In this document: in pieces, positions 11,609 to 38,642 of the stretch
How the letters are laid out: each line of letters begins with the position of its first letter
Numbering within the stretch: the stretch's first letter is position 1
Program-made: the position numbers and the translations under genes
Notes under the pieces: model-generated
Told to the model about the DNA's origin: nothing
Databases searched by the model: none
Seen by the model: only the letters and a program-made list of their open reading frames with translations
NCBI GenBank assembly: GCA_021203465.1
Contig: JAJQBC010000104.1
Span: 1-49,372 of the forward strand
Source of the DNA: Lachnospiraceae bacterium
Lineage (GTDB): Bacteria > Bacillota > Clostridia > Lachnospirales > Lachnospiraceae
Direction of reading: 5' to 3'
DNA length: 49,372 nucleotides

Positions 11609-11628
11609 AAGAAAAGAGGCGTTGCAAA

Positions 11629-12762
11629 ATGGCACATATTTATCTGGCCTCCCCGCATATGAGCGCGGAGGGCTATGAGCAGGAATATATTAAGGAAGCG
11701 TTCGATACGAACTGGATCGCGCCGCTCGGCAAAAATGTCAATGAGTTCGAGAAGGAGCTGAGCGCTTATGTACATGCGCAGGACGCGGCGGCGCTCTCTG
11801 CGGGTACTGCGGCGATGCACCTCGCGCTGAAGGCCGTGGGCGTGGGAGAGGGCGACATCGTATTCTGTCAGTCGCTGACTTTTTCCGCGACGGCGAATCC
11901 GATCGCCTATGAGAAGGCGGTGCCGGTTTTCATCGACAGTGACCGCGAGACCTGGAACATGTCCCCGGGGGCGCTAGAGCGGGCATTCGCGAAGTATCCG
12001 AACGTAAAGGCTGTGATTCCGGTACATCTCTACGGCCTCCCGGCCAATATGGACGCCATCACCGAGATTTGTAAAAAGCACGGTGTTCCGATCATCGAGG
12101 ACGCGGCGGAGAGCCTCGGAACTCTCTATCACGGACAGTACACCGGCACCTTCGGCGATTACGGCGTCTTCTCCTTCAACGGCAATAAGATCGTCACAAC
12201 TTCCGGCGGCGGCATGCTCGTGTGCAGTCTTCCAGAGGAGCAGGCAAAGGAGCGCATGGCGAAGGTGCGCTTCTGGGCGACGCAGTCGCGGGAGCCGGCT
12301 CGCCATTATGAGCATAAGGAAATCGGATATAATTACCGTATGAGCAACATCTGCGCCGGGATCGGCCGCGGACAGCTTCGGGTGATCGAGCGAAGGATTG
12401 AACAGAAGCGTCATGTTTTCACTTATTATCAAGAGCATCTGGGCGATCTTGCGGGTGTATCCTTCATGCCGCTGCACGAGGGGGAGCGCGCGATCTGCTG
12501 GCTCAGCGTCATGCAGCTCTCCGACGACTGCCCGGTGAAGCCGCTCGACGTGATTTTCACGCTCGAGCGCGGCGACATCGAGAGCCGTCCGGTCTGGAAG
12601 CCGCTGCACCTGCAGCCGGTGTTCGCGGGCAGCGATTATTTTGACAACGGCGGCGTGGCGGAGTCGCTCTTCACACATGGCGTGTGCCTGCCGAGCGACA
12701 CAAAGATGACGGACGCGGATCTCGAGAGGATTTGCAGCATTATCAGAGGACTGTGGAAGTAG
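11629..12762 (+). CDS. PglE-like PLP sugar aminotransferase (DegT/DnrJ/EryC1 family)
   Basis: A 377-residue aminotransferase predicted to add a 4-amino group to the keto sugar made by the preceding dehydratase, with glutamate as donor. Family marks are TNWIAPLG near the N-terminus, SAGTAAMHLAL (PLP phosphate region), IIEDAAES with the PLP-contacting Asp, and SFNGNKIVTTSGGGM with the Schiff-base lysine K187. The TNWIAP and FNGNKI signatures are those of the PglE/4-amino group and differ from the second aminotransferase of this window (22052). It stops immediately before the PglC-like gene with no gap. Confidence 0.88.
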   Translation: MAHIYLASPHMSAEGYEQEYIKEAFDTNWIAPLGKNVNEFEKELSAYVHAQDAAALSAGTAAMHLALKAVGVGEGDIVFCQSLTFSATANPIAYEKAVPVFIDSDRETWNMSPGALERAFAKYPNVKAVIPVHLYGLPANMDAITEICKKHGVPIIEDAAESLGTLYHGQYTGTFGDYGVFSFNGNKIVTTSGGGMLVCSLPEEQAKERMAKVRFWATQSREPARHYEHKEIGYNYRMSNICAGIGRGQLRVIERRIEQKRHVFTYYQEHLGDLAGVSFMPLHEGERAICWLSVMQLSDDCPVKPLDVIFTLERGDIESRPVWKPLHLQPVFAGSDYFDNGGVAESLFTHGVCLPSDTKMTDADLERICSIIRGLWK

Positions 12763-13458
12763 ATGAGAGAGGGTATTTACGCGCGCAGTGTCAAACGAAA
12801 ACTGGATATTCTCCTGTCCGGTACAGCGCTCCTGCTGCTGAGTCCGGTGCTGCTGGTCACCGCGCTGCTGGTCCGGAAGAATCTGGGCAGTCCGGTACTG
12901 TTCACGCAGTTGCGGCCGGGACAGGGAGAGCGGATTTTCCGTATGTATAAATTTCGGACGATGACGGATGAGCGCGGTGCGGATGGGAAGCTGCTTCCGG
13001 ACGAGGCGCGCCTGACGGACTTCGGAAAGTTTCTGCGTGAGAGCAGCCTCGACGAGCTGCCGGAGCTGTTCAACATCTTAAAGGGAGATATGAGCATCGT
13101 GGGGCCTCGGCCCCAGCTCGTCAGGGATATGGTATTCATGACGAAGGCGCAGCGCAGGCGGCACAGTGTGCTGCAGGGACTCACCGGCCTCGCCCAGGTG
13201 ATGGGCAGAAATAATATTTCCTGGGAGGAGAAGCTTCGCTGGGATCAGAGGTATGTGCGCCATGTGACCTTTCTGGGAGATGTCTGGATTCTGATCCGTA
13301 CGGTCGTGAACGTCCTGAAGAGAGAGGATATCAATACGGACGGCATGGCGACAGCGGAGGATTTCGGAGATTATCTGCTCCGCACCGGCAAGGTAAATCA
13401 GGCGACCTATGAGCGGAGGCAGCGGATTGCCCGCCGGATCTGTCAGAAATACAGTTGA
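12763..13458 (+). CDS. PglC-like small initiating phosphoglycosyltransferase
   Basis: A 231-residue monotopic enzyme that should move a sugar phosphate, probably a diamino-trideoxy sugar, from UDP to undecaprenyl phosphate at the inner face of the membrane. It has a basic start, one hydrophobic re-entrant helix (about 15-37), the catalytic Asp-Glu pair D97-E98 in SSLDELPE and the SIVGPRPQ segment. It lacks the extra N-terminal membrane domain of WbaP, unlike the second enzyme of this class at 33017. A C-terminal extension (about 185-231) goes beyond the minimal PglC length. The ATG follows the previous stop directly. Confidence 0.87.
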   Translation: MREGIYARSVKRKLDILLSGTALLLLSPVLLVTALLVRKNLGSPVLFTQLRPGQGERIFRMYKFRTMTDERGADGKLLPDEARLTDFGKFLRESSLDELPELFNILKGDMSIVGPRPQLVRDMVFMTKAQRRRHSVLQGLTGLAQVMGRNNISWEEKLRWDQRYVRHVTFLGDVWILIRTVVNVLKREDINTDGMATAEDFGDYLLRTGKVNQATYERRQRIARRICQKYS

Positions 13459-13470
13459 AAGGCTTTCAGT

Positions 13471-14316
13471 ATGGAACGAGAGTGGGAATATTACAATCAC
13501 GCGCTGGTGCCGACGACCGCGCCGCATGTGGTTCCGGACACGTCCTGGATGGGCGACGGAAAAAAGTGGCGGGAACTGGCGGACGGAAAGCGGGCGTTGT
13601 TTGCCAGATGGATCAGCGACTTTGACTGTGGGGAAGAGACCGAGTGGTGGTGCCTTATAAAGGATACGCCTTTTGATATGATGTCCTTAAAGTCCAACAG
13701 GCGAAGCCTGATCACCCGGGGGCTGAAACGTGTGGATGTGCGGGTTATCGTTCCCGCCGACTATGCGGAGCAGATGGCGAACGTCCTGATCAAGGCCTGG
13801 AAATCTTACGACGCTCGCTATGAGGAAGGGAACGACCGGAAGCGGCTTACGGCGGAATTTGGGCAGCTTACAGTGGGCCATCTGGAGAATAACGAGTATC
13901 TGGGCGCTTTTCTGAAGGACACAGATACGATGATCGGATACAGCATCTATATCCTGCATGACGACTGGATCGAGTATTCCGTGGTGAAAACAGACCCGGA
14001 GTATCTGAATACGCAGGTCAACGCGGCGCTGGCCTATTACGGACTGCAGCGCTATATGAAGCCGGGGATCCGCTATATTTTAGGCGGCTACCGGACGATG
14101 ATCCATGAGACAAATTATCAGGATTATCTTCTCAAGAATTTTGGGTATCGGAAGGCCTATTGCAGACTGCATATTCAGTACCGCCCGTGGATGAAGGCGA
14201 TCGTTTCCATTCTGTATCCATGGAGAAATGTGATACAGAAGTTCAGCAAAAACCGGCTGCTCTATCAGGTCTGGTGTACGCTGCGGCAAGAGGAAATCCA
14301 TCGTACCTTTTTATAA
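13471..14316 (+). CDS. GNAT/FemAB-like putative N-acyltransferase
   Basis: A 281-residue soluble protein I do not place in a named family with certainty. The centre reads EWWCLIKDTPFDMMSLKSN, then RGLKRVDVRVI, a pattern I associate with FemAB/GNAT-fold acetyltransferases found in capsule clusters. A later LGAFLKDTDTMIGYSIYIL stretch fits the GNAT beta-strand pair. No left-handed beta-helix repeat is present, so it is not a PglD homologue. Because it follows PglF, PglE and PglC, it is the best local candidate for acylating the 4-amino group; that is inference. AAAGG lies 8 bases before the ATG. Confidence 0.55.
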   Translation: MEREWEYYNHALVPTTAPHVVPDTSWMGDGKKWRELADGKRALFARWISDFDCGEETEWWCLIKDTPFDMMSLKSNRRSLITRGLKRVDVRVIVPADYAEQMANVLIKAWKSYDARYEEGNDRKRLTAEFGQLTVGHLENNEYLGAFLKDTDTMIGYSIYILHDDWIEYSVVKTDPEYLNTQVNAALAYYGLQRYMKPGIRYILGGYRTMIHETNYQDYLLKNFGYRKAYCRLHIQYRPWMKAIVSILYPWRNVIQKFSKNRLLYQVWCTLRQEEIHRTFL

Positions 14317-15561: not shown

Positions 15562-16641
15562 ATGAAATATGCACTGATCGGCTGCGGCCGAATCGCAACG
15601 AACCATATCAAGGCGGTATTAAATAACGGTCTCACTTTTGCGGCGGTCTGCGATGTGGAGCCCGCGCAGATGGCGGCGCTGCTCGCAAAGCACGGTCTCG
15701 ATAGGGACGGTAGTATTGCGCGCTACACAGACTATCGAAAGATGGTGGAGGAGGTGCAGCCGGAGCTTGTCGGCATCGCGACGGAGAGCGGTGTCCACGC
15801 CGAGATCGCGCTGTTCTGTATTGATCACGGCGTGAACTGCATTGTCGAGAAGCCGATCGCGATGAATATGGAGGACGCAGATGAGATTGTCCGCCGCGCT
15901 CAGGAAAAAGGCGTAAAGGTTTCCGCCTGTCACCAGAACCGCTTCAATCTGGCGGTGCAGGAGACACGCAGGGCGCTCGAAGCGGGGCGTTTTGGGAAAC
16001 TGTCGCACGGTTCGATTCACGTGCGCTGGAACCGGAACCAGTCCTATTACGAACAGGCGCCGTGGCGCGGGAAATGGGCTTCCGACGGCGGTGCTCTGAT
16101 GAACCAGTGCATTCACGGCATTGATCTGCTGCGCTGGATGCTCGACGACGAGGTGGAGGAGGTCTACGGCGTGACGCGGCAGCAGTTTCACCATTATCTC
16201 GAGGCGGAGGACGTCGGTCTGGCGGTTGTGAAATTCAAAAATGGCGTGATTGCGACGATCGAGGGAACGACGAATGTCTACCCACAGAATCTGGAGGAGA
16301 CGCTCTATCTCTTCGGGGAAAATGGCACGGTGAAGCTCGGCGGGAAGTCCACGAATAACATTGATGTCTGGGCTTTCGCGGATGAGGAGGAAGAGGATGC
16401 CCGGAACCGGCATTTGCAGGAGGAGACCAGCAATGTCTACGGGAACGGCCACACGAGCCTCTACGCAGATGTGATTGACGCGATCAAAAGTGACAGGAAA
16501 CCCTATGTGGACGCTGTGGCCGGGCGGAACGCGCTCGAGCTGGTGCTCGCAATCTACAAGAGCCAGAAGGAGGGCGTGCCGGTGAAGCTGCCGCTTAAGG
16601 GCTTCCGGAGCATCGATATGGCGGGGGAATTTGATGTTTAA
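15562..16641 (+). CDS. WlbA/WbpB-like UDP-GlcNAcA 3-dehydrogenase (Gfo/Idh/MocA)
   Basis: A 359-residue NAD-dependent oxidoreductase. It starts with a GCGRIA nucleotide motif, carries the EKP catalytic motif (K97), and has the segment RWNRNQSYYEQAPWRGKW followed by GGALMNQCIHGIDLLRWM, which strongly recalls WlbA/WbpB. Those enzymes oxidise C3 of UDP-N-acetylglucosaminuronate so that an aminotransferase can install a 3-amino group. The matching WbpE-like aminotransferase is at 22052 in the same operon. The ATG is 1 base after the previous stop with AGGAGAGG upstream; the end overlaps the LpxD-like gene by 8 bases. The substrate is inferred by family resemblance only. Confidence 0.82.
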   Translation: MKYALIGCGRIATNHIKAVLNNGLTFAAVCDVEPAQMAALLAKHGLDRDGSIARYTDYRKMVEEVQPELVGIATESGVHAEIALFCIDHGVNCIVEKPIAMNMEDADEIVRRAQEKGVKVSACHQNRFNLAVQETRRALEAGRFGKLSHGSIHVRWNRNQSYYEQAPWRGKWASDGGALMNQCIHGIDLLRWMLDDEVEEVYGVTRQQFHHYLEAEDVGLAVVKFKNGVIATIEGTTNVYPQNLEETLYLFGENGTVKLGGKSTNNIDVWAFADEEEEDARNRHLQEETSNVYGNGHTSLYADVIDAIKSDRKPYVDAVAGRNALELVLAIYKSQKEGVPVKLPLKGFRSIDMAGEFDV

Positions 16642-17542
16642 AGTTGGGGAAGTGATGGCCTGCGAGCTGGCCGGGGAGGAGTTCCCGGAGCTCATCGGGC
16701 GGGAATTTAAGATATATGGCGTCTCCGATCCGGAAGCGCCCCAGAGTAACAGCATCATCTACGCGCGGACGGACGTGAGCGGAGACTATGCGGGTGTGCG
16801 GGAGAGCATTTTCGTCACTAAGACGGACGTGGAGCTGTCGGGGCTGCATGAGTCCTGTGTGCAGATCCGCGCCGCGATGCAGAAGAGCTTGTATGGCGTG
16901 CTGCTTGAACGCTTCCGTGCGCTGCTGCCGAAGCCTGTATTACAGCAGCGGGATGGCAGCTTCTTAAGCGAGGATCTGAGGCTCGGAGAGAACGTATCGA
17001 TCGCCCCCTTCTGTGTGATCGGGGCGGATGTTGTGATTGGCGACAATTGCCGGATCGGAGCGGGAACCGTGATTAAGGATCACGTGCGCATTGGGAATAA
17101 CGTGGAGATTCAGGAGCACTGCCTGATCGGCGTGGATGACCTCGACACGTATCGTCTGGACGACGATGTGTGCCGTGATTTGCCACATCTGGCGGGAACG
17201 ATTATCGAGGACGGTTGCCTTCTGCTGGCGGGTGCCGTGCTGGCCGCGGGCGATTCGCGTACGACTGTGCTTGGCCGGAGTTCGGTGATCGGGCTCCTTG
17301 GCGACGTCGGACATAATTGTGTGGTCGGCGCGCACAGTTCGATCGGCGGAAAATCGAGCATCTCCGGACACTGCGATATTGGGGAGCATGTCTATATCGC
17401 TCCGATGGCGGTGACGACGAACCGGATGCGTGTGGGGGATCGCGCCTATCTTGGCATTGGCGCGACTGCGATCCGGGATATTCCTGCAGACGAAAGGCAG
17501 TTCGGGAATCCCGCGCGGAAGGTGCTGGAGAAGAAGGGTTAA
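16634..17542 (+). CDS. LpxD-like UDP-amino sugar N-acyltransferase
   Basis: A 302-residue protein with an N-terminal mixed domain (about 1-105) and a left-handed beta-helix of hexapeptide repeats (about 115-275). The end, PMAVTTNRMRVGDRAYLGIGA then FGNPARKV, is as in sugar N-acyltransferases. The N-terminal domain plus helix is the layout of LpxD, which takes an acyl group from acyl-ACP to the free amine of a UDP-sugar. The 3-N-acetyltransferases WbpD/WlbB are clearly shorter, about 190 residues as I recall. LpxD itself belongs to lipid A synthesis, unexpected in a Gram-positive, so a dedicated role with the carrier protein at 21820 is more likely. ATG 16634 follows GGGGGAA and overlaps the previous stop. 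Confidence 0.75.
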   Translation: MFKVGEVMACELAGEEFPELIGREFKIYGVSDPEAPQSNSIIYARTDVSGDYAGVRESIFVTKTDVELSGLHESCVQIRAAMQKSLYGVLLERFRALLPKPVLQQRDGSFLSEDLRLGENVSIAPFCVIGADVVIGDNCRIGAGTVIKDHVRIGNNVEIQEHCLIGVDDLDTYRLDDDVCRDLPHLAGTIIEDGCLLLAGAVLAAGDSRTTVLGRSSVIGLLGDVGHNCVVGAHSSIGGKSSISGHCDIGEHVYIAPMAVTTNRMRVGDRAYLGIGATAIRDIPADERQFGNPARKVLEKKG

Positions 17543-17545
17543 TTT

Positions 17546-19051
17546 ATGGTTCAGAATGTACTCGAATATCTGGAAGGCAGCGCGGCAGACTGCCCGGAGA
17601 AAATTGCATTTGAGGACGCGGAGCGGAGTTTCACCTATGCGCAGGTACTGGTGGATGCGCGGCGGATCGGCAGCGCGCTTGCGCGCGATCTGCCACAGAA
17701 CGCGCCGGTGCCGGTGCTGATGGAAAAGGAAGCATTTACGCTGAATGTTTTTATGGGAGCAGTCTGTGCGGGCTGCTTTTATACGCTGGTGGAGCCGGAG
17801 CAGCCGGCGGAGCGGATCCTGTCGATTCTGCGGACGCTGGAGGCGGGACTGCTAGTCACCGACCGGAAGCTCCTTCCGAAAATCGAAGAAATTGGTTTTG
17901 GGGGGAAGATTCTGCTGGCGGAGGAGCTCGCGGCCTGTGAAGCGGATGAATCGCTGCTCGCGGATCGCAGGCGGAGTTTCTGTGATGTCGACCCGCTTTA
18001 CACGAATTTTACTTCCGGCTCGACCGGCGTGCCAAAGGGCGTTGTGGTCTCACACCGTTCGGTTATCGACTTTACGGAGCACTTTACCCGAATTTTCGGT
18101 TTTGGCCGAGACGACGTGATCGGGAACCAGGCGCCCTTTGACTTTGACGTGTCGGTCAAGGATATTTATCCGGCACTGAAAATCGGAGCAACAGTTGAAG
18201 TGATTCCGAAGAAATACTTTTCAATTCCGAAGAAGTTGCTCGATTTTCTCGATGAGCGGAAGGTGACGAGCCTTACCTGGGCGGTGTCGGCGTTGTGCGT
18301 GATTTCGATGTTGAAGGGTTTTCGTTATAAGGTGCCCGGAAGCATAAAGAGAGTTCTGTTCAGCGGCGAGGTCATGCCGGTGAAGCAGCTGAATTACTGG
18401 CGGGCGTATCTGCCGGGCGTGCTCTACGCGAATCTCTACGGGCCGACGGAGATCACCTGCAACTGTACGTATTATGTGATAAACCGGGAGTTCTCGGAGG
18501 AGGAGAGCATCCCGATTGGGCGAGCCTTCCCGAACGAGCGGGTCTTCCTGCTGGACGAGGAGGATGCCCTTGTGACAGAGCCGGACAGGCTTGGGGAGAT
18601 CTGTGTGTCCGGCACGGCGCTGGCGCTCGGCTATTACCGGGAGCAGGGGAAGACGGATGCGGTTTTCGTGCAGAATCCGCTGCATGCACGCTATCGGGAG
18701 CCGATTTATCGCACAGGCGATCTCGGGCGCTACGGCGAGGATGGAGAGCTCTATTATGTGACGCGCAAGGATTTTCAGATCAAGCATATGGGGCATCGGA
18801 TCGAACTCGGAGAGATCGAGACGGCGCTGCAGGCGCTTCCCGGGATTGCACGGGCCTGTTGTGTCTATGATGAGCCGAATACGCGGATTATCGCTTTCTA
18901 TGTCGGAGAGCCGGGCGCGAAGGAGATCATCGAACGATTGACAGAACGGCTACCGCGGTTTATGATTCCCAGTGTATTCCGGCGCGTGGAGGAGATGCCG
19001 CTCACAAAGAACGGCAAGATCGACCGGAAAGTTTTAATGATACAACTCTGA
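17546..19051 (+). CDS. DltA-like amino acid adenylation enzyme (AMP-binding)
   Basis: A 501-residue stand-alone adenylation enzyme that should activate a carboxylic acid with ATP and load it on the carrier protein at 21820. Visible motifs are the P-loop NFTSGSTGVPKG (153-164), the substrate motif FDFDVSVKDIYP with D201, YGPTE (298-302), YRTGDLGRY and the C-terminal NGKIDRK with K491. An Asp in the FDxS position is used by amino acid adenylation domains, including DltA, to hold the alpha-amino group, so an amino acid substrate is more likely than a fatty acid. There are no fused carrier or condensation domains. The start is 3 bases after the previous stop, and the stop shares a base with an ATG at 19051. 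Confidence 0.82.
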   Translation: MVQNVLEYLEGSAADCPEKIAFEDAERSFTYAQVLVDARRIGSALARDLPQNAPVPVLMEKEAFTLNVFMGAVCAGCFYTLVEPEQPAERILSILRTLEAGLLVTDRKLLPKIEEIGFGGKILLAEELAACEADESLLADRRRSFCDVDPLYTNFTSGSTGVPKGVVVSHRSVIDFTEHFTRIFGFGRDDVIGNQAPFDFDVSVKDIYPALKIGATVEVIPKKYFSIPKKLLDFLDERKVTSLTWAVSALCVISMLKGFRYKVPGSIKRVLFSGEVMPVKQLNYWRAYLPGVLYANLYGPTEITCNCTYYVINREFSEEESIPIGRAFPNERVFLLDEEDALVTEPDRLGEICVSGTALALGYYREQGKTDAVFVQNPLHARYREPIYRTGDLGRYGEDGELYYVTRKDFQIKHMGHRIELGEIETALQALPGIARACCVYDEPNTRIIAFYVGEPGAKEIIERLTERLPRFMIPSVFRRVEEMPLTKNGKIDRKVLMIQL

Positions 19052-19068
19052 TGAAAAAGGAGCTTACG

Positions 19069-20235
19069 ATGGACAGGAAAAAGCTTTCGGAACTGGTAAA
19101 GGCTCTGGGGACGCCTTCCTATGTGTTTGACACGGATATGCTGAAGGAGCGCGTGCAGCGCGTTGCGCAGAAGCTTGCGCCGACGAAGCTGTGTTACGCG
19201 ATCAAGGCGAACCCCTTTCTGATTAGGGCGTTGGACGAGCTGGTGTCCCGCTATGAGGTCTGCTCCCCGGGCGAGTTTCATATCTGTGTGAAAAATGAGC
19301 TGGACATGGATAAGATCGTGTTGTCCGGCGTCTATAAGGCAGAAGAGGATGTCCGCTATGCGATGGAACAGGGCGTCCGGCATTATACCACAGAATCCGT
19401 GCGCCAGTTTCAGCTCGTGCAGCGCTGCGCGGACGAGCTTGGCAGGGAGGTGGACATCCTGCTGCGTGTGACGGGCGGCTGCCAGTTCGGCATGAGCGAG
19501 GACGATGTCCGGACGCTGCTCCGGGGGCAGAAACAGTCTTCGCATGTGGAGATTGCAGGGCTTCAGTATTTCACCGGGACGCAGAAGAAGCAGATTAAAA
19601 AGATCGCGGCGGAGCTTTCCTATATCGAGGATTTTGTCCGACGGCTGAAGGAGGAGGAGGGCTTTGTCGCGCGGACGCTGGAGTATGGACCGGGACTCGG
19701 CGTGCCCTACTTCACGAAGGATGATTTTGAGGAGGACGAGCGGCTGCTGGACGAGTTCGCAGCACTCCTTGAGAAGGAGCGGCCCTATGAGCTGGTCTTT
19801 GAGATGGGGCGTTATCTTGTTGCATCCTGCGGTTATTATATGACGCAGATTGTTGACCAGAAGAAAAATGACGCAGTAAATGTCCTGATTGCAGATGGCG
19901 GTATTCACCACGTCAATTACTACGGGCAGAATATGGCGATGAAAACGCCGGTTCTGTCATATGTTCCGCAACACCCACTGGAGTGCGTGGAGGAAGAGGA
20001 GTGGACGGTGTACGGCTCCCTTTGCACGACGGCGGATATTTTGCTGAAACGGCTGCCGCTCACGGATGTGAGGGTTGGAGACTACCTGGTTTTCCACAAC
20101 ATCGGCGCCTACGCGGTGACGGAGGGCATTTACCTCTTCCTGAGTCGGGATATGCCGAAGATTTATCTATATAGTGAGACGGCGGGGCCGGAGCTGGTCC
20201 GGGAGGCGCTTGAGACTTGGAAATGGAATTCATAG
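19069..20235 (+). CDS. Fold-type III PLP-dependent decarboxylase
   Basis: A 388-residue enzyme of the diaminopimelate/ornithine decarboxylase and alanine racemase fold. It has YAIKANP with the PLP lysine K46, the phosphate loop EYGPGLG (205-211), EMGR (245-248) and GSLC with the catalytic cysteine C319. The HIGSQ segment of diaminopimelate decarboxylase is replaced by YFTGTQ (168-172). Related enzymes beside carrier proteins are known: BtrK of butirosin synthesis decarboxylates an amino acid held on an ACP. The adenylation gene before it and the carrier gene after it suggest the same here. ATG 19069 is chosen over ATG 19051 because AAAGGAG at 19056-19062 is correctly spaced only for 19069. 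It is unlikely to be LysA for lysine supply in this context. Confidence 0.8.
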   Translation: MDRKKLSELVKALGTPSYVFDTDMLKERVQRVAQKLAPTKLCYAIKANPFLIRALDELVSRYEVCSPGEFHICVKNELDMDKIVLSGVYKAEEDVRYAMEQGVRHYTTESVRQFQLVQRCADELGREVDILLRVTGGCQFGMSEDDVRTLLRGQKQSSHVEIAGLQYFTGTQKKQIKKIAAELSYIEDFVRRLKEEEGFVARTLEYGPGLGVPYFTKDDFEEDERLLDEFAALLEKERPYELVFEMGRYLVASCGYYMTQIVDQKKNDAVNVLIADGGIHHVNYYGQNMAMKTPVLSYVPQHPLECVEEEEWTVYGSLCTTADILLKRLPLTDVRVGDYLVFHNIGAYAVTEGIYLFLSRDMPKIYLYSETAGPELVREALETWKWNS

Positions 20236-20252
20236 GAGAGGAAGGCGGGAAA

Positions 20253-21800
20253 ATGCCGGAAAGAGAACATCTGGAAAGATATAAAATAATTCTGATGAGC
20301 GCCCTATTGTGGGGACTTTGCGCGCATGGGATGACGCTTTTTAATAAATATTCCTTTCATGATGATTCATCCCTGTTTACCCTGGGAGGCACCTATTATC
20401 TCGGCAGATGGATGCTGGGAATACTCGGCGATCTGAATACCTGGCTTTTCGGGAGCACCTATTACAGCCTGCCGCTGTTCAATGGGATTCTGACTGTTTT
20501 GTTTATCGCGCTGTGCGCGATGCTGCTGGCAGACCTGTTTCAGGTAAAAAATCGCTGGCTGCTGACGGCACTGACGGGCATTATGGTCGTATTCCCAGTG
20601 ATTACCAGCGGTTTTGGCTATATGTTCACTATGCCGTATTATCTTCTGGGTACGCTGCTGGGTGTGCTTGGCGCATATCTCTCCTGCAGGGCGCGGAAGT
20701 GGTATCTTTACCTGCTCGGACTGTTTCTGATGGCTTGTGGGGTCGGCACTTATCAGGCTATGATCCCGGTGTTTGTCAGCGCGATTCTGTTTTACGCGCT
20801 GATGGAGACGGCAAAGAAGAAAGAGACAGAGTGGAGGGCGTTTTTTCGGATCGGCTGCAAAAGCATCGTTTCCTGTGCGGGCTTTATGGCGATCTATTTT
20901 GCGATCATGAAGCTGTCGCTTGCGATCACAGACAATCAGCTCTCAGATTATCAGGGCATCAGCACGATGGGCGCGACTTCCGTTAAGGGATACATCAAAA
21001 GAGCGCTTGTCGCCTACCGGGAATTTTTCTCACCTACCGACGGTGTGAGCGGGAATATGTATCCTTTTTCGACGGATATTGTATACCGGCTTCTCCTTAT
21101 TCTGGCGTTGATCGGAACAGTGAACCTGTTATACCGCAGCTGGAAAAAGAGCCGACAGCTCTGCCTGCAGGTGCTGGTATTTGTGGTCTGTATCCCGCTG
21201 GCGGTGAATTTTATCTATGTGATGTGTACTTTTGAACAGGTGGACTCGCTTATGACCTATGGAGAAGTCATGTTCTATGTCTATTTCGCGTGGCTTGTGG
21301 AGGCCGGATTTTTGCCGGAGCTTCCCATCCGCCAAATTGGAGAGAAGGCGCGCCGCGCGCTGCCGGCGCTTGGTCTGGGTCTGCTTTTGCTGTTGAACGT
21401 GATGTATATTCGCTTCGACAATATTTGTTATCTCAAGGCGGAGGTCATGCAGTCGGAGGGTATCAGCTATTTTACCATGCTGGCCACACAGATTAAGAGC
21501 GTGGAGGGTTTCACGGATGAGACGCCGGTTGTGTACGTGAATGAATTTGCGAAATACGACTATACATCCGGCAGTATCAGTCTTCAGGAATTTAAGGAGA
21601 TCGAGATTGTGCCCTACGACAGCAGCAGTATTTTAAATAATTATGCATGGCGCATCACGATGAAGATCTGGTGCAACTTTGACCCGGAAACGCGAGACGC
21701 CTCCGAGTATGAGAACCTGCAGGAGGTTCAGGAGATGCCGTGCTATCCGGATTCAGGTTCTATCAAGATGATCGATGGTGTGATTGTGGTCAAGTTTTAG
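20253..21800 (+). CDS. GtrII-like membrane glucosyltransferase-domain protein
   Basis: A 515-residue polytopic membrane protein with about ten to twelve segments and a C-terminal outer domain (about 420-515). After the first membrane helix it reads NKYSFHDDSSLF with the acidic pair D37-D38, as in the GtrII glucosyltransferase-domain family, which transfers a sugar from a polyprenyl-phosphate donor to the growing glycan outside the cell. ATG 20253 is preceded by AGGAGAGG at 20234-20241; earlier in-frame TTG and ATG codons overlap the decarboxylase gene. Its place between the decarboxylase and the carrier protein is odd and may mean it handles the modified sugar. Confidence 0.7.
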   Translation: MPEREHLERYKIILMSALLWGLCAHGMTLFNKYSFHDDSSLFTLGGTYYLGRWMLGILGDLNTWLFGSTYYSLPLFNGILTVLFIALCAMLLADLFQVKNRWLLTALTGIMVVFPVITSGFGYMFTMPYYLLGTLLGVLGAYLSCRARKWYLYLLGLFLMACGVGTYQAMIPVFVSAILFYALMETAKKKETEWRAFFRIGCKSIVSCAGFMAIYFAIMKLSLAITDNQLSDYQGISTMGATSVKGYIKRALVAYREFFSPTDGVSGNMYPFSTDIVYRLLLILALIGTVNLLYRSWKKSRQLCLQVLVFVVCIPLAVNFIYVMCTFEQVDSLMTYGEVMFYVYFAWLVEAGFLPELPIRQIGEKARRALPALGLGLLLLLNVMYIRFDNICYLKAEVMQSEGISYFTMLATQIKSVEGFTDETPVVYVNEFAKYDYTSGSISLQEFKEIEIVPYDSSSILNNYAWRITMKIWCNFDPETRDASEYENLQEVQEMPCYPDSGSIKMIDGVIVVKF

Positions 21801-21819
21801 ACAACAGGAGGATGAAAAG

Positions 21820-22050
21820 ATGGAGGAATTACTGGAACTGCTGGCGGAACTGAAGCCGGAGATTGATTTTGGGACGGAGAAAGAGCTAATCGATGACGGT
21901 ACTCTTTCGTCTTTTGATGTGATTACGCTGATCGCGGAGCTGGAGGAGCGCTATGCGGTGGAGATTCCGGCGGAGGAGATTGTACCGGAGAATTTTAACT
22001 CGGCGGAAGGTATTTGGAAGCTTCTTGGAAAGTTAAAGGAGGAAGCATAG
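21820..22050 (+). CDS. Acyl/peptidyl carrier protein
   Basis: A 76-residue acidic helical protein of carrier protein size. The likely 4'-phosphopantetheine site is the serine in DGTLSSFDVI (S31). The residue before it is Ser where most carriers have Asp (DSL or DSF), so the match is slightly off. Its best analogues by length and motif are DltC-type stand-alone carriers. AGGAGG at 21806-21811 is 8 bases before the ATG. It lies one base from the aminotransferase gene and about 2.8 kb after the adenylation enzyme that should load it. A fatty acid synthesis ACP is less likely, because no fab genes are nearby. Confidence 0.8.
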   Translation: MEELLELLAELKPEIDFGTEKELIDDGTLSSFDVITLIAELEERYAVEIPAEEIVPENFNSAEGIWKLLGKLKEEA

Positions 22051-22051
22051 G

Positions 22052-23188
22052 ATGCAGTTTCGGGATTTAAAGAGCCAGTATCGGGCATTAAAAGGGGAGA
22101 TGGACGCGGCGATTGAGGCTGTCCTTGACTCTTCAGATTATATTGCGGGAGACCAGATCGACGAACTTGAACAGGATCTCGCGGACTACATTGGAGTACG
22201 AAACTGTGTGAGCTGTGGAAACGGGACAGACGCGCTTGTGCTGGCGTTGAAGGCCTGGGGTGTCGGTAGCGGGGACGCGGTTTTCGTACCGGATCACACC
22301 TTTTTCTCCTCGGCGGAGTCCGCGGCCTTCGTCGGCGCGACGCCGGTCTTCGCGGACGTGTCGGAGGATACCTTTACGATTGATCCGGAGAGCCTCACGC
22401 GTGTGATCGATGCGGTCGTCGCAGAGGGAAAACTAAAGCCGCGTGCGATTGTTGTGGTCGATCTCTTTGGCCTTCCGGCGGATTACGAGCGGCTTCGTAA
22501 GATCGCGGACCGTTATGGTCTCTATATTCTTGAGGACTGCGCGCAGGGTTTTGGTGGCGTCTACCATGGGAAACAGGCGGGAAGCTTCGGTGATATTTCC
22601 ACGACCTCCTTTTTCCCGGCGAAACCGCTGGGCTGCTACGGCGACGGCGGCGCGGTGTTCACGGACAACGATGAGTGGGCGGCGCTGATCCGTTCGATGC
22701 GGGTGCACGGCAAGGGCAGCAGCAAGTATGACAATGTCCGCATTGGTATGAATTCCCGCCTCGACACGATCCAGGCGGCGGTGCTGCAGGTGAAGCTGAA
22801 AGCTTTTCAGGAATATGAGCTGAAGGACGTGAATACGGTGGCGGCGCGTTACACGGAAGCGCTGCAGGACTGTGTGAAGGTTCCGCGTGTGCCGGAGGGT
22901 TATTATTCGAGCTGGGCCTCTTATAATATCCTCTTGAGGGATGAAGAACAGCGCGATGCGGTTCGAGCATATCTACAGGAAAACGGTGTGCCGACGATGA
23001 TCTATTATCCGAAGGGGCTGCACCAGCAGAAGGTCTTTGAGGATGTCTGTCTGTACGGCGAGAGTCTTGCGGTGACGACCGATATCTGCAAGCGCACGCT
23101 GGCGATTCCGGTATCGCCTTATCTATCCAATGAAGATCAGGATCGCATTATCCGCCTGATCCGGGAAAAGACGGGAGCTGACGCATGA
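22052..23188 (+). CDS. WbpE/WlbC-like UDP-3-keto sugar aminotransferase
   Basis: A 378-residue DegT/DnrJ-family PLP aminotransferase. Key segments are IAGDQIDELEQDLADYIG, CVSCGNGTDALVLAL, ILEDCAQGFGG and SFFPAKPLGCYGDGGA with the PLP lysine K191. The FFPAKPLGCYGDGGA block is characteristic of WbpE/WlbC, which aminate C3 of the 3-keto uronic acid made by WbpB/WlbA. It thus pairs with the oxidoreductase at 15562, and its product would be the amine acceptor for the LpxD-like enzyme. The gene starts one base after the carrier protein gene, with AAGGAGGAA 7 bases upstream, and overlaps the next gene by ATGA. Confidence 0.87.
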   Translation: MQFRDLKSQYRALKGEMDAAIEAVLDSSDYIAGDQIDELEQDLADYIGVRNCVSCGNGTDALVLALKAWGVGSGDAVFVPDHTFFSSAESAAFVGATPVFADVSEDTFTIDPESLTRVIDAVVAEGKLKPRAIVVVDLFGLPADYERLRKIADRYGLYILEDCAQGFGGVYHGKQAGSFGDISTTSFFPAKPLGCYGDGGAVFTDNDEWAALIRSMRVHGKGSSKYDNVRIGMNSRLDTIQAAVLQVKLKAFQEYELKDVNTVAARYTEALQDCVKVPRVPEGYYSSWASYNILLRDEEQRDAVRAYLQENGVPTMIYYPKGLHQQKVFEDVCLYGESLAVTTDICKRTLAIPVSPYLSNEDQDRIIRLIREKTGADA

Positions 23189-24279
23189 AAATACTGCTGA
23201 TCTCTTATGATTATTACGCATACGATGGGCGGCTGCGTGAGCTGGTCCGGGCTGCGAAGGAGCTCGGGAAAGTATGGTATATCACCCGCGCGTCGGAAGG
23301 GGAGGAGCCACAGGAGGCGACGCATATCCTCTATCCGGATCATGGCTACAGCAATTTTATCTTCTTTGTGATGCAGCAGATCCAGCGGGTCGGCGCACAG
23401 GATGTGATCTTTGTTGACAACCGCAAGGGTATCATTCCGGGTGTGATCGCGAAGCGGATGACGGGCGCGCGCTACATGGTGCAGGACTGTCGGGAACTCT
23501 ATGACTGCAAAAGCGCGGTCGGCCTTTCCGGTCGGCTCGGCTGCATGGTGGAGAAGATCTTTACGCGGCGCTCGGACGTAGTCATCGCGGCGAACGCTTA
23601 CCGCGTGAAGATTATGGTGAAGAAATTTCGGCTGAAGGCTGAGCCGCTGAACTATGAAAATATCCGCTGCCTTCGCTATACTTCGCAGGAAAGGCGTGAG
23701 CTGGTGGAGCAGGAGTGCGCGGAGTTTTTTAAGGAGAAGAAATTTCGCATCATCTCCACAGCGGGCTGCGATATGAGCCGCACGACCGGGAAGATGATCG
23801 AGGCGCTGAAGGGTCTTGGAGAGGACTACGAATTACTCCTGATTGGCGAAAGCGAGGAGGAGGACGAGCAGATCGCCCGCGGCATGATTCAGGAGCTTGG
23901 ACTCACCAATGTGAAGATTTTCCCGCGCATGGATCAGGATCATCTGAAATATTTTATCGGACACTCGCAGGTCGGCATGGTGACTTACCACCAGCGCGAC
24001 CTGAACAATAAATACTGTGCGAGCGGAAAGATTTACGAGTTCCTGTTTGAGGGGATTCCGGTCGTGACATCCACGAATCCGCCGCTTAAGGATTTTTGCG
24101 AGAAGTATAAGGTTGGCCGTGCTTCTGACGATTATGAGGCTGCGATCCGTGAGGTCGCCGGAAATTATGGGCGCTGGACGGCCGCAGTGGAGCGTTTTGT
24201 GAGCCGTGCGGATGTGGAGCGAAATAATCACAGACTGGCGGAGCAGATTCGGGAGCGCCTGAAGGAGAAGACACGATGA
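23185..24279 (+). CDS. Family 4-like glycosyltransferase
   Basis: A 364-residue GT-B protein. The N-terminus KILLISYDYYAYDGRLRELVRAAKEL fits a GT4 acceptor domain, and the C-terminal YEFLFEGIPVVTSTNPPLKDF holds an abbreviated E-x7-E-like region. It overlaps both neighbours by ATGA (23185 and 24276). It sits between the aminotransferase and the 2-epimerase, so it may add the modified uronic acid sugar; this is a guess from position. Confidence 0.78.
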   Translation: MKILLISYDYYAYDGRLRELVRAAKELGKVWYITRASEGEEPQEATHILYPDHGYSNFIFFVMQQIQRVGAQDVIFVDNRKGIIPGVIAKRMTGARYMVQDCRELYDCKSAVGLSGRLGCMVEKIFTRRSDVVIAANAYRVKIMVKKFRLKAEPLNYENIRCLRYTSQERRELVEQECAEFFKEKKFRIISTAGCDMSRTTGKMIEALKGLGEDYELLLIGESEEEDEQIARGMIQELGLTNVKIFPRMDQDHLKYFIGHSQVGMVTYHQRDLNNKYCASGKIYEFLFEGIPVVTSTNPPLKDFCEKYKVGRASDDYEAAIREVAGNYGRWTAAVERFVSRADVERNNHRLAEQIRERLKEKTR

Positions 24280-25373
24280 GAAAAGTAATGCTGGTGTTCG
24301 GTACCAGGCCGGAGGCCATCAAGATGTGCCCGTTGGTAAACGAGCTGAAGACGCGGCCGGGGATCGAGACGGTCGTCTGTGTGACCGGTCAGCACCGGCA
24401 GATGCTGGATCAGGTGCTGGAGGCATTTTCGGTTGTGCCGGACTATGACCTGTCGATCATGAAGGAGCGGCAGACGCTGTTCGACGTGACGACCAATATC
24501 CTGAATCGCATTCGCGAGGTGCTGGAAAAGGTCGCGCCCGACGTGGTGCTCGTCCACGGCGACACCTCCACGACCTTTGTGACCGCGCTCGCCTGTTTTT
24601 ATCTGCAGATTCCGGTCGGACACGTAGAGGCGGGTTTACGCACCTATAATCTTTACTCACCTTATCCGGAGGAATTTAACAGACAGGCTGTCAGTATCAT
24701 TTCGCAGTATAATTTTGCTCCGACCGAGCTCTCGAGGCAGAACCTTCTGCGGGAAGGAAAGAATCCTGACACGATCTATGTGACCGGCAACACGGCGATC
24801 GATGCCCTGAAGACGACGGTGCGGGAGGACTATACACACCCGGAGCTTGACTGGGCGGCGGGCAGCCGCCTGATCCTGATCACCGCGCATCGCCGCGAGA
24901 ATCTGGGCGAACCGATGCGGCATATGTTCCGCGCGATTCGTCGTGTGTGCGACGAGCACCCGGATATTCGGGCGATCTATCCGATCCACATGAATCCGGT
25001 CGTTCGGGAGACCGCAAACGAAATTCTCGGGGACGATGAGCGGATCCGTATCATCGAACCGCTCGATGTGCTTGATTTTCACAATTTTCTGGCGCGAAGT
25101 TATCTTGTCCTGACGGACAGCGGCGGGATACAGGAGGAGGCGCCCTCCCTTGGAAAGCCGGTGCTCGTCATGCGTGACACGACGGAGCGGCCGGAGGGAA
25201 TCAAGGCCGGCACGCTGAAGCTGGTCGGCACGGACGAGAGCGTTATCTATGACAATTTTAAGCTGCTGCTCGAAGATAAGGCGGCCTATGAGGCCATGAG
25301 TACTGCGAGCAATCCCTACGGCGACGGTTTCGCGAGCAGGCGGATTGCCGATATTCTGGAAGGAAAAGCATGA
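24276..25373 (+). CDS. wecB: UDP-GlcNAc 2-epimerase (non-hydrolysing)
   Basis: A 365-residue GT-B-fold epimerase that interconverts UDP-GlcNAc and UDP-ManNAc. Marks are VFGTRPEAIKM at the N-terminus, VHGDTSTTF, GHVEAGLRT, LITAHRRENLG and LTDSGGIQEEAPSLGKPVLV, all of the WecB/MnaA type. The WbpI type, which acts on the diacetamido uronic acid, usually begins with a GARPQFIK form, so UDP-ManNAc supply is preferred here. The WecC-like dehydrogenase at 37401 in the second operon would complete UDP-ManNAcA. In many Gram-positives a separate mnaA serves teichoic acid synthesis. Confidence 0.92.
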   Translation: MRKVMLVFGTRPEAIKMCPLVNELKTRPGIETVVCVTGQHRQMLDQVLEAFSVVPDYDLSIMKERQTLFDVTTNILNRIREVLEKVAPDVVLVHGDTSTTFVTALACFYLQIPVGHVEAGLRTYNLYSPYPEEFNRQAVSIISQYNFAPTELSRQNLLREGKNPDTIYVTGNTAIDALKTTVREDYTHPELDWAAGSRLILITAHRRENLGEPMRHMFRAIRRVCDEHPDIRAIYPIHMNPVVRETANEILGDDERIRIIEPLDVLDFHNFLARSYLVLTDSGGIQEEAPSLGKPVLVMRDTTERPEGIKAGTLKLVGTDESVIYDNFKLLLEDKAAYEAMSTASNPYGDGFASRRIADILEGKA

Positions 25374-32983: not shown

Positions 32984-33016
32984 ATTATAGATTATGTTTA
33001 TGAGGTAATGATTTCC

Positions 33017-34369
33017 ATGGATAAATATGACCAGTTCAAGCGCCTGCTCCGGCTTGGGATCGCAGGGCTGGAGATATTGATAGAAACCGCATTTTTTGCA
33101 TATGTCTGGTATGCCATTTACAATGAGCGGCGCTGGGCGGCCTTTGAAAACAAGGGAAATCTGATGATGATCGGATTTTACGTGTTCTATCTGATCATTT
33201 TTATCTATATGTATGGCGGCACAAAATATGCGTACTATACCAAGGGGCAGCTGATCCTGTCACAGACGTTGGGCTCTGTATTCGCGAATACGGTGATGTA
33301 TATCCAGATTATCATGGTGTTCGGGCGCTTCCCCTTTCCGACGGCTTGGCCGATGGTTGCGCTCTGCGGTGTAGATCTTGTGGTGGCAGCGCTTGTGAAC
33401 CAACTTTCGGACGGCATGCTGCGGCGTCTGTTTCCACCAAAAAGGTTGTTGCTGGTCTGTGATGCACAGTATCAGGCGGATCTCGTGCAGAAGCTCTCAG
33501 TGCGTAAAGATTTATATGAGATTACCCGCTGCGTTCCGACATCTGAGCCGTTGGCAAGCCTGCAACGGGAGATTCAGAGCTGCGATGCCATGATGCTCTA
33601 TGGGCTGGATGAGCAGAAGCGCAATATTCTGATCAAATTCTGCTATGAGCAGTCCATCCGCGTCTATATCGCGCCGGAGATTTCAGACATTCTGCTGCGC
33701 GGCGCGGATCGCGTGCACTCCTTTGATACTCCCTTTCTGCTGCTGCGCAACGCCGGGCTCTCCTTTGAGCAGCGCATTGCGAAACGCGCGATGGATATTG
33801 TGATTTCCGCAATTCTTCTCGTGATTGCGTCGCCCTTCATGCTGTTGACCGCGATCGCGATCAAGGCGGAGGACGGCGGTCCGGCGCTCTATAAGCAGGA
33901 GCGTGTGACGATCGGTGGGAAGAAGTTCTATATTTATAAGTTTCGCAGCATGGTCGTGGACGCGGAGAAATATGGTGCGCAGTTTTCCACGAAGCATGAC
34001 AGCCGTATTACAAAGGTCGGCCATTTTATCCGTGCGGTGAGGCTGGACGAGCTGCCGCAACTTTTCAATATTCTGAAGGGCGACATGAGCATCGTGGGGC
34101 CGCGGCCTGAGCGCCAGCAGTACATTGAGGAGTTCTGCCGCGAGACACCGGAATTCATCTATCGGTTGAAGGTGAAAGCGGGACTGACCGGTTACGCCCA
34201 GATTTACGGGAAATATAACACGACCCCGCTGGACAAGCTGAAGCTTGACCTGATGTACATCGAGAGCTACTCGATCCTATTGGATATTCGGCTGATCTTC
34301 CTGACTTTGAAGATCATGTTCACGAAGGAGAGTACGGAGGGAGTGGAGGACGGACAGAACCATGCGTAG
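33017..34369 (+). CDS. WbaP/CpsE-like initiating polyprenyl glycosylphosphotransferase
   Basis: A 450-residue membrane enzyme starting a lipid-linked glycan by moving a sugar phosphate to undecaprenyl phosphate. It has four or five N-terminal membrane helices, a middle cytoplasmic Rossmann-like part (RLLLVCDAQYQ) and the C-terminal catalytic module. The module carries KRAMDIVISAI, YKQERVTIGGKKFYIYKFRSM, the Asp-Glu pair in RLDELPQLFNIL, and SIVGPRPER. It is a larger class than the PglC-like enzyme at 12763, so the window has two different initiators. The ATG at 33017 is better spaced from TGAGG (33001-33005) than the one at 33008. The end overlaps the next gene by 8 bases. Confidence 0.9.
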   Translation: MDKYDQFKRLLRLGIAGLEILIETAFFAYVWYAIYNERRWAAFENKGNLMMIGFYVFYLIIFIYMYGGTKYAYYTKGQLILSQTLGSVFANTVMYIQIIMVFGRFPFPTAWPMVALCGVDLVVAALVNQLSDGMLRRLFPPKRLLLVCDAQYQADLVQKLSVRKDLYEITRCVPTSEPLASLQREIQSCDAMMLYGLDEQKRNILIKFCYEQSIRVYIAPEISDILLRGADRVHSFDTPFLLLRNAGLSFEQRIAKRAMDIVISAILLVIASPFMLLTAIAIKAEDGGPALYKQERVTIGGKKFYIYKFRSMVVDAEKYGAQFSTKHDSRITKVGHFIRAVRLDELPQLFNILKGDMSIVGPRPERQQYIEEFCRETPEFIYRLKVKAGLTGYAQIYGKYNTTPLDKLKLDLMYIESYSILLDIRLIFLTLKIMFTKESTEGVEDGQNHA

Positions 34370-37329: not shown

Positions 37330-37400
37330 GGCAGAGAAATTGCCGGTTACAGGCAGTTCGGCTGTGATTGGTTAGGGAATACAACAAGGAGAGATGGACA

Positions 37401-38624
37401 ATGATTAATGTAGTGGGACTCGGCTATATCGGCCTGCCGACAGCTCTGATGTTCGCCGCACACGGCGTGGAGGTCGTGGGCACAGATTATAACCGGGAGC
37501 TTGTCGACACGCTTAAGGCGGGCAGGACGACTTCCGAGGAGGATGGCCTTGACGAACTCTTTACGGAGGCGGTAAAAAAGGGCATCCGCTTTTCCCATGA
37601 ATATCAAAGCACGGACATGTACATTGTGTCAGTGCCGACGCCCTATGATAAGGCGAGTAAGAAGGTGGATGCGAGCTTTGTGGCCGGAGCGGTGAAAAAC
37701 GTCATGGAAGTCTGCCCCAAAGGGGCGGTGATTGTAATTGAGTCCACGATCTCCCCGGGGACAATCGACCGCCATGTGCGTCCCATTGTGGAGGAACAGG
37801 GTTTTGTGATTGGGGAGGACATTCATCTTGTCCACGCGCCGGAGCGCATTATTCCGGGAAACATGGTCTATGAACTGAAGCACAATTCGCGCACGATCGG
37901 TGCGGACAGCCGTGAGGTCGGTGAGCGGGTGAAGGCGCTGTACGCCTCCTTCTGTGAGGGAGAAATTGTCGTGACGGATATCCGCACCGCGGAGATGACA
38001 AAGGTCGTCGAGAATACCTTCCGTGATATCAACATTGCCTTCGCAAATGAGCTGGCGAAGATCTGCCGCTCCGACAATATGGATGTCTACGAGATTATCC
38101 GCATCGCGAACAAGCATCCGCGCGTGAACATTCTCTCACCGGGGCCGGGTGTGGGAGGACACTGCATTTCTGTCGACCCCTGGTTTCTGGTCGGAGATTA
38201 TCCGGGACTTTCCAATATCATTCTGGCGGCGCGGAAGATCAACGACTCCATGCCGGATTTCGTACTGGAGCGGATCCACGATATCATGAAGGAAAATCAG
38301 CTGAGCGATGTGGGACGCGTAGGCCTCTACGGTCTGACCTATAAGGAGAATGTTGACGATACGCGCGAGAGCCCGACGCTGCAGATGCTGGAGAGCATGG
38401 AGCGTCATCTCACCGGCGGGCAGATCCGCGTCTATGATCCTTATGTGACAAAAGATATTGTCCCCAACCAGTATCATGACCTGGACTTATTCCTGAAGGA
38501 TGTGGATATGGTTGTGTTGTTGGTCGGGCATGATGAGATTAAGGAAAATATGGAGAAGCTCAGAGGGAAGATCGTGCTGGATACGCGGCATATCTGCTTT
38601 CTTGACGGGGTATACAGACTGTAG
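37401..38624 (+). CDS. UDP-ManNAc/UDP-HexNAc 6-dehydrogenase (WecC-like)
   Basis: A 407-residue enzyme that oxidises C6 of a UDP-HexNAc to the uronic acid with two NAD. It has GLGYIGLPTA (6-15), HAPERIIPG, K201 in TKVVENTFRD, and GPGVGGHCISVDPW with the catalytic cysteine C255. The PRVNILSPGPGVGGHC and VDPWF forms favour the WecC group (UDP-ManNAc) over UDP-glucose dehydrogenase. With WecB (24276) this gives UDP-ManNAcA. A UDP-GlcNAc 6-dehydrogenase role that feeds the WlbA-like enzyme is also possible. Start ATG 37401 has AAGGAGAG 7 bases upstream. Confidence 0.87.
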   Translation: MINVVGLGYIGLPTALMFAAHGVEVVGTDYNRELVDTLKAGRTTSEEDGLDELFTEAVKKGIRFSHEYQSTDMYIVSVPTPYDKASKKVDASFVAGAVKNVMEVCPKGAVIVIESTISPGTIDRHVRPIVEEQGFVIGEDIHLVHAPERIIPGNMVYELKHNSRTIGADSREVGERVKALYASFCEGEIVVTDIRTAEMTKVVENTFRDINIAFANELAKICRSDNMDVYEIIRIANKHPRVNILSPGPGVGGHCISVDPWFLVGDYPGLSNIILAARKINDSMPDFVLERIHDIMKENQLSDVGRVGLYGLTYKENVDDTRESPTLQMLESMERHLTGGQIRVYDPYVTKDIVPNQYHDLDLFLKDVDMVVLLVGHDEIKENMEKLRGKIVLDTRHICFLDGVYRL

Positions 38625-38642
38625 CAGGGAAAGGATATTCAT

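Follow-up and report, generated by a model that had tools for sequence, protein, structure and literature searches.

A conserved gene cassette of a Lachnospiraceae genus with a predicted role in attaching a decarboxylated aminoacyl group to a UDP-3-amino sugar

Here, we describe a gene cassette at positions 15562-23188 of a 49,372-bp stretch of DNA from a Lachnospiraceae bacterium (hereafter the window, which is one entire contig, C10, of a 3.24-Mb genome in 158 contigs). In this cassette, genes for an adenylation enzyme, a decarboxylase and a carrier protein, together referred to as the trio, lie among genes for a nucleotide-sugar pathway. We propose, with a probability that we put at roughly 0.55, that the cassette makes a UDP-3-amino sugar with an omega-aminoacyl group on its 3-amine, by way of carrier loading, decarboxylation and transfer by an LpxD-like enzyme. 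Gene content, gene order, conservation and active-site letters are the observed basis of this proposal; all reactions are inferred from them, as are the identities of amino acid, acceptor and polymer. The trio itself is a portable unit: most copies are found with export genes of the Dlt kind, and those of this genus with a nucleotide-sugar pathway.

Results

The cassette and the proposed pathway

The interval carries seven genes, every one on the plus strand, and the spacing between adjacent genes is −19 to +19 bp, overlaps included, with the starts as adopted here (that of the carrier is better placed at ATG 21820, giving 76 aa):

15562..16641, plus strand: WlbA/WbpB-like dehydrogenase, predicted to catalyze C3 oxidation of a UDP-sugar, with UDP-GlcNAcA as the expected substrate
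16634..17542, plus strand: LpxD-like N-acyltransferase, predicted to transfer a carrier-bound acyl group to the 3-amine
17546..19051, plus strand: DltA-like amino-acid adenylation enzyme, pocket letters DVKTLSLCNK
19051..20235, plus strand: BtrK-like fold-type III pyridoxal phosphate (PLP) decarboxylase, predicted substrate a carrier-bound amino acid
20217..21800, plus strand: GtrII-type membrane glycosyltransferase (PF14264, 205.7 bits), an optional insertion
21820..22050, plus strand: DltC-like carrier protein, attachment Ser within LSSFD
22052..23188, plus strand: WbpE-like 3-aminotransferase of the DegT family

An earlier, sequence-only reading of this DNA named six families here, and our family searches agree with all six; it counted six genes, however, because it overlooked the GtrII gene between the decarboxylase and the carrier.

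We suggest that the DltA-like enzyme would adenylate Asp or Glu via the side-chain carboxyl and then load the carrier, and that the BtrK-like enzyme would strip off the free alpha-carboxyl on the carrier to leave beta-alanyl- or 4-aminobutyryl-S-carrier. WlbA and WbpE would convert a UDP-sugar, most likely UDP-GlcNAcA, to the 3-amino sugar. The LpxD-like enzyme would then move the carrier-bound group to the 3-amine, at the step at which WbpD usually acetylates, and neighboring glycosyltransferases would place the modified sugar in a surface polymer. A PLP decarboxylase of this type requires a free alpha-amino and a free alpha-carboxyl group. Thus, the thioester would be on the side-chain carboxyl, with beta-linked Asp giving the beta-alanyl and gamma-linked Glu the 4-aminobutyryl group. 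The sequence-only reading had an amino acid loaded on the carrier without this restriction; the loading still fits, provided that the side-chain carboxyl is the one activated, as otherwise the alpha-carboxyl would not be free. Because 4-aminobutyryl thioesters are prone to cyclize, beta-alanyl is slightly favored, and we leave the choice undecided.

Conservation within the genus

The genus set comprised 17 genomes, including the window's own, and the surroundings of the decarboxylase were compared in the other 16. The decarboxylase is present in 17/17 genomes (E 1e-50), with 63-87% identity outside its own genome. Around it, the order WlbA, LpxD-like, DltA-like, decarboxylase, carrier, WbpE and glycosyltransferase is kept in the 16 other genomes, in three of them imperfectly: G970 is broken across two contigs inside the decarboxylase, the contig of G980 starts inside WlbA, and in G973 the WlbA match spans only 206 aa. 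On the contig of G973 (L021:1996-3058), the WlbA frame is interrupted in the assembly. The co-occurrence of the six families, which the sequence-only reading had named as its own check, is thus borne out within the genus. Each of the 16 other genomes also has a glycosyltransferase 3' of WbpE. By contrast, the GtrII gene is present in 6/17 genomes and absent from 11 and, therefore, represents an insertion outside the core machine. The content of the gap between decarboxylase and carrier varies, from the GtrII gene in the window to a minus-strand 306-aa gene (L023:11238-12158) to nothing (L022).

The LpxD-like protein was also sought in wider samples: among 299 genomes of the family, one per genus, it was found in the window's own genome only (E 1e-30), and its profile matched 4/398 genomes of the phylum (E 1e-35), the other three matches being distant.

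Sugar genes

The dehydrogenase belongs to the Gfo/Idh/MocA family, and its two best solved relatives are 3q2k (E 5e-74) and 3q2i (1e-65), which we take to be WlbA proteins. It keeps Lys97 of an EKP motif and His185 in alignment with these relatives, presumably the catalytic residues of WlbA. The best match of the aminotransferase is 4qgr, followed by WbpE at 6e-82, and the protein is 55% identical to the aminotransferase of a Wbp-like cluster in the same phylum (L115).

According to the sequence-only reading, the acceptor is a 3-amino uronic sugar. The WlbA/WbpE-like pair supports the 3-amino part of this claim, while the uronic part is less evenly supported across the genus. The order of the known pathway is WbpA-B-E-D-I, as given in PMC10622841. 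A WbpA-type 6-dehydrogenase gene lies directly 5' of WlbA in 8/17 genus genomes and is absent there in 8, including the window's own (G980 could not be scored). In L023, this WbpA-type gene is 76% identical to its counterpart in the L115 cluster. The window has a different nucleotide-sugar 6-dehydrogenase gene at 37368, which has an orthologue (86-94%) in 16/17 genus genomes but is only 32% identical to the L023 gene and belongs to another subtype; perhaps this enzyme supplies the uronate in the window's own genome.

Alternatively, the same chemistry could act on a non-uronate acceptor, with WlbA and WbpE using UDP-GlcNAc and the LpxD-like enzyme acylating UDP-3-amino-GlcNAc. The GnnA/GnnB pair acts on UDP-GlcNAc itself. 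The missing WbpA-type neighbor in the 8 genomes is in line with such an acceptor, as is the finding that the searched genomes of that group have elsewhere only matches of 33-34% to the WbpA-type gene (G966, G969, G976-G979, G981), and in the window's own genome a non-uronate 3-amino sugar is possible. However, a single group-fixed difference, L259I, separates the WlbA proteins of genomes that have the WbpA-type gene (8 sequences) from those of genomes that do not (7 sequences), in a comparison that rests on WlbA only because G980 and a piece of G970 are mixed into the "without" group of the other four genes. From this single difference, we conclude that the substrate of WlbA is probably unchanged between the two groups. 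Moreover, the near-universal enzyme encoded at 37368 could provide the uronate. We therefore consider a non-uronate acceptor unlikely and retain UDP-GlcNAcA as the expected substrate.

The LpxD-like acyltransferase

LpxD is the top NCBIfam model for the hexapeptide acyltransferase, with 113.5 bits and thus below the cut-off of 242.5. In an hhalign comparison with Escherichia coli LpxD (Prob 98.8, E 4.6e-17), 248 columns align over LpxD residues 21-291, the N-terminal part with lower confidence, and His228 falls on the catalytic His239. A role in lipid A synthesis was ruled out because LpxC is absent on a search of the genome; as a control, the same search was positive in 4/14 genomes.

The position of the gene argues for a 3-amine as the acceptor. 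In the cassette, the trio is flanked by the LpxD-like gene and WbpE, and two Wbp-like clusters of the same phylum (L115 and L116) have a hexapeptide gene in the stretch from the 3-dehydrogenase to WbpE (in L115, the 3-dehydrogenase and the hexapeptide gene were named by eye). This matching position is also in keeping with the earlier proposal that the LpxD-like gene stands in the place of WbpD. Among the window proteins scanned, there was no other Hexapep match as a candidate WbpD, in a search that did not extend to other parts of the genome.

Several distant candidates were rejected as parallels. L114, L115 and L116, whose LpxD-like proteins are ∼25-29% identical, are without an adenylation enzyme and carrier of the window kind. 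The LpxD gene of Scalindua (L083) adjoins LpxI, as expected of a normal gene of lipid A synthesis, and in L097, the adenylation-profile match is an acyl-ACP synthetase/acyltransferase. Two of these loci have further features. The interval L115:3557-9918, beside the Wbp-like cluster, has an LpxD-like gene close to a carrier-like open reading frame (ORF) and to ORFs that resemble, by eye, a ketoacyl synthase, a malonyl transferase and a phosphopantetheinyl transferase; this is perhaps another carrier-fed acylation of a sugar. In L114:7785-13783, a distant LpxD-like gene is clustered with an ORF remotely similar to fold-type III decarboxylases (19% identity), and neither adenylation enzyme nor carrier was found.

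The trio outside the genus

The decarboxylase family was detected in 9/291 genomes of a class sample, its own included, and in 85/397 genomes of a family sample, with at most 49% identity outside the genus. Close relatives are Lachnospiraceae or Clostridiaceae by record title. All 8/8 class relatives compared have the adenylation gene, the decarboxylase and the carrier; a ∼530-aa protein comes next in 7/8 and a ∼310-aa protein in 6/8. The ∼530-aa protein is an MBOAT protein in the one member tested, with DltB as the best model (155 bits, cut-off 375). The ∼310-aa protein, modeled from L038, has a confident predicted fold (pLDDT 95.6) of the SGNH/GDSL hydrolase type, with TesA-type enzymes as top matches and DltD (6pfx) at rank 34 (E 6e-5). 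Across the 39 of 45 SGNH candidates that were aligned, the GDS motif and a late His are kept in 36 to 39 of 39, and the invariant His sits in DxGDH.

In a scan of GTDB, the best 80 of 541 matches were used, so that all counts are lower bounds, and 18/80 loci (L083-L100), at 26-29% identity, were treated as outliers and left out, leaving 62 core loci. Of these, 59 could be aligned for the decarboxylase, 60 for the adenylation enzyme and 56 for the carrier. The adenylation gene lies directly upstream of the decarboxylase in 57 core loci, and a carrier occurs anywhere in the locus in 56 and within 600 bp downstream in 41. A DltB-like MBOAT gene lies at most 8 kb away in 51/62 and an SGNH-fold protein match in 43/62, and the exact order adenylation gene, decarboxylase, carrier, MBOAT, SGNH is present in 34/62. 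Neither MBOAT nor sugar genes were seen in 8/62, five of which stop at most 90 bp from the decarboxylase. Sugar genes accompany the trio in 3/62 (L021, L022 and L023); these are contigs of three genus genomes already counted and, therefore, add no independent evidence. In the trees of both the decarboxylase and the adenylation enzyme, the sugar-linked forms cluster with support 1.0. No relatives were found in a scan of viral contigs, and plasmids gave no matches at 1e-40. Operons of the Dlt kind that also carry a BtrK-like decarboxylase gene are seen in L024-L082 (e.g., L038:8505-14030, L033 and L046), including records that are Coriobacteria-like by title (L060, L062, L066 and L077).

The sequence-only reading had tied the trio to 3-amino sugars, and this link does not extend to most relatives, in which the trio stands beside MBOAT genes. 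It is conceivable that the trio product goes elsewhere in the window's organism, either to another amine, such as that of the 4-amino sugar of the upstream PglF/LegC-like genes, or to an extracellular polymer, and that the LpxD-like protein is a plain acetyltransferase replacing WbpD. The trio lacks WlbA and WbpE in most relatives, PglF-, LegC- and PglC-like genes lie just upstream of the cassette, and the genome has four MBOAT matches. None of these four matches is on the window's contig, though, so that the window has no DltB/DltD locus of the Dlt type, and every genus genome that covers the stretch has the trio enclosed by the LpxD-like gene on one side and WbpE on the other. On balance, we regard a destination outside the 3-amino sugar as quite unlikely, and transfer to the 3-amine remains our preferred reading.

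Decarboxylase, adenylation enzyme and carrier

The best solved relatives of the decarboxylase are two BtrK sequences (7ru7 and 2j66). The PLP Lys is present in 59/59 core loci, and so is Thr177 of the GTQ motif, which BtrK shares and which is Ser in three LysA proteins and in 17/18 outliers. The residue after the active Cys is Thr in 54 and Ser in 5 of the 59 core loci, Thr in BtrK and Glu in the three LysA proteins; among the 18 outliers, it is Glu in 12, Thr in 5 and Ala in 1. Thus, the active-site letters are BtrK-type and unlike LysA-type in 59/59. In the tree, the core proteins form a clade apart from LysA, BtrK and L083-L100 (support 0.986 to 1.000), while BtrK joins L083 and L097 weakly. 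The genome has a separate LysA-like gene on contig C93, which, together with the active-site letters, rules out a LysA function for the window's enzyme and agrees with the comparison to BtrK drawn from the sequence alone. The LysA model score of 183.6 bits, which is close to the best model's 188.4 (both below their cut-offs), would fit an enzyme that acts on diaminopimelate, ornithine or a similar amino acid in free form, with the adenylation enzyme loading the resulting or another amino acid. Such an activity is improbable, however, in view of the BtrK-type letters, the separate LysA-like gene and the close linkage to the carrier and adenylation genes.

The adenylation enzyme matches PF00501 with 194 bits and misses the curated DltA cut-offs (289 bits against 476, and 286.7 bits against 560). 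We assigned ten pocket positions on what we take to be the GrsA numbering. Asp235, Lys239, Ser301, Cys330, Asn331 and Lys517 are identical in 60/60 sequences. The invariant pocket Lys205 (60/60) has Glu as its counterpart in the second adenylation gene of the genome. Lys at position 239 is present in some glutamate-activating domains. Judged from these letters, the pocket Lys is compatible with an extra carboxylate on the substrate, and Asp and Glu are not separated. The second stand-alone adenylation enzyme of the genome (C153:9826-11250) has the pocket letters DIESIGTVCK.

The carrier matches PF00550 at 20.9 bits (cut-off 20.8), and its best solved relatives are D-alanyl carrier proteins. 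The attachment Ser, position 31 of the 76-aa protein, is present in 56/56 aligned carriers, and the genome has one match to the phosphopantetheinyl transferase family.

Discussion

Three known systems carry out, or appear to carry out, parts of the proposed chemistry. In butirosin biosynthesis, BtrK is the closest solved relative of the window's decarboxylase and has in common with it the GTQ Thr and the Cys-Thr letters; its product goes to an aminoglycoside, whereas that of the cassette is proposed to go to a surface sugar. Butirosin loading is carried out by BtrJ, an ATP-grasp ligase. In vicenistatin biosynthesis, VinN, VinO and VinL are, like the trio, a stand-alone adenylation enzyme, a PLP decarboxylase and a carrier. 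According to PMC11284099, they are a proven precedent for loading before decarboxylation, with VinN and VinO acting on 3-methylaspartate, and FlvN acts on Asp. Unlike in the cassette, the product is a polyketide starter to which a protecting amino acid is added, there are no sugar genes, and VinO is likened to the window's enzyme by its role. The exosortase-A-associated families TIGR03098 and TIGR03099 likewise bring an adenylate-forming ligase, a PLP decarboxylase and a carrier into one neighborhood, of the kind seen in Scalindua (L083); the window's proteins score 185.5 (cut-off 592) and 188.4 bits (cut-off 478) with these models and belong to a separate clade.

The sugar and transfer genes have their own counterparts. 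The cassette shares with the Wbp/Wlb pathway to UDP-GlcNAc3NAcA the 3-dehydrogenase and the WbpE-like aminotransferase and, in the eight genomes mentioned above, a WbpA-type gene, but it has the LpxD-like gene and the trio where WbpD would be, and the epimerase next to it is of the WecB type rather than the WbpI type by model score. The LpxD-like protein resembles LpxD in its beta-helix fold, catalytic His and full-length profile match, and differs in scoring below the family cut-off in a genome without LpxC. The trio resembles Dlt D-alanylation in its DltA- and DltC-like proteins and, in many loci, in the DltB-like MBOAT and SGNH proteins, but has an extra decarboxylase.

Altogether, the chemistry is already known from butirosin and vicenistatin, while its use on a surface sugar would be new. 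Neither this gene combination nor such a use turned up in a literature search, which left most subscription journals outside. The chemistry advanced by the sequence-only reading is consistent with everything observed here, and as an interpretation it is partly supported.

Several observations weigh against our proposal. No Pfam LpxD match was found in the N-terminal region of the LpxD-like protein, the AlphaFold model of this protein is poor (pLDDT 52), and a fold search with that model returned nothing at E 0.001, with LpxD (6uec) at rank 27 (E 0.92). A whole-genome search of the window's own genome found no close WbpA-type copy, the best matches being the 37368 gene (33%) and a gene on contig C116 (30%). 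The residue before the carrier Ser is Asp in 42/56 carriers and Ser in the window, so that the usual Asp is missing. Thr after the active Cys also occurs in 5/18 outlying decarboxylases. In L026, L034 and L075, both MBOAT and sugar genes are missing from the sequence covered. Finally, because the trio is mostly beside MBOAT genes, the trio alone is no sign of N-acylation.

The finding of the trio opens a broader class than the sequence-only reading saw. We suggest tentatively, at slightly less than an even chance, that decarboxylating relatives of Dlt are a widespread second route to surface amines, in which a beta-alanyl or 4-aminobutyryl group made on the carrier is passed to outer polymers by MBOAT/SGNH proteins, the common form with 51 or more GTDB loci, or, in the genus studied here, to a UDP-3-amino sugar in the cell by an LpxD-like enzyme, with a zwitterionic repeat if the sugar is a uronate. 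If this is true, the surface sugars and polymers of many Clostridia bear amines that no current annotation predicts, and the pathway departs from D-alanylation by one decarboxylase. Such amine groups would alter the surface charge and could affect the response to cationic peptides, phages and the host.

Other features of the window

Three further plus-strand genes bear on the cassette:

23185..24279, plus strand: probable glycosyltransferase, 3' of the cassette, weakly matching TuaH (20 bits against a cut-off of 550)
24276..25373, plus strand: WecB-type UDP-GlcNAc 2-epimerase (TIGR00236, 520.7 bits, cut-off 210), the usual next neighbor
37368..38624, plus strand: nucleotide-sugar 6-dehydrogenase (TIGR03026, 429.5 bits), candidate source of UDP-uronate in the window's own genome

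The first of these had no matches in a Pfam search at E 0.001. Just upstream of the cassette, genes at 9746-13455 encode a PglF-like dehydratase, a LegC-family aminotransferase and a PglC-like sugar transferase, which suggests that the first sugar of the polymer is a 2,4-diamino sugar. A 281-aa protein encoded at 13471-14316 has a weak GNAT match (E 0.01) and could be the acyltransferase of this upstream amino sugar. A second polysaccharide block at 33008-41749 includes a sugar transferase, a heparinase II/III-like protein and the 6-dehydrogenase, as well as a 706-aa fusion of alcohol dehydrogenase and Gfo-Idh-MocA domains. The tandem repeats of the window are unremarkable, and a restriction endonuclease of the MvaI/BcnI type (PF15515) is encoded at 48029-49279.

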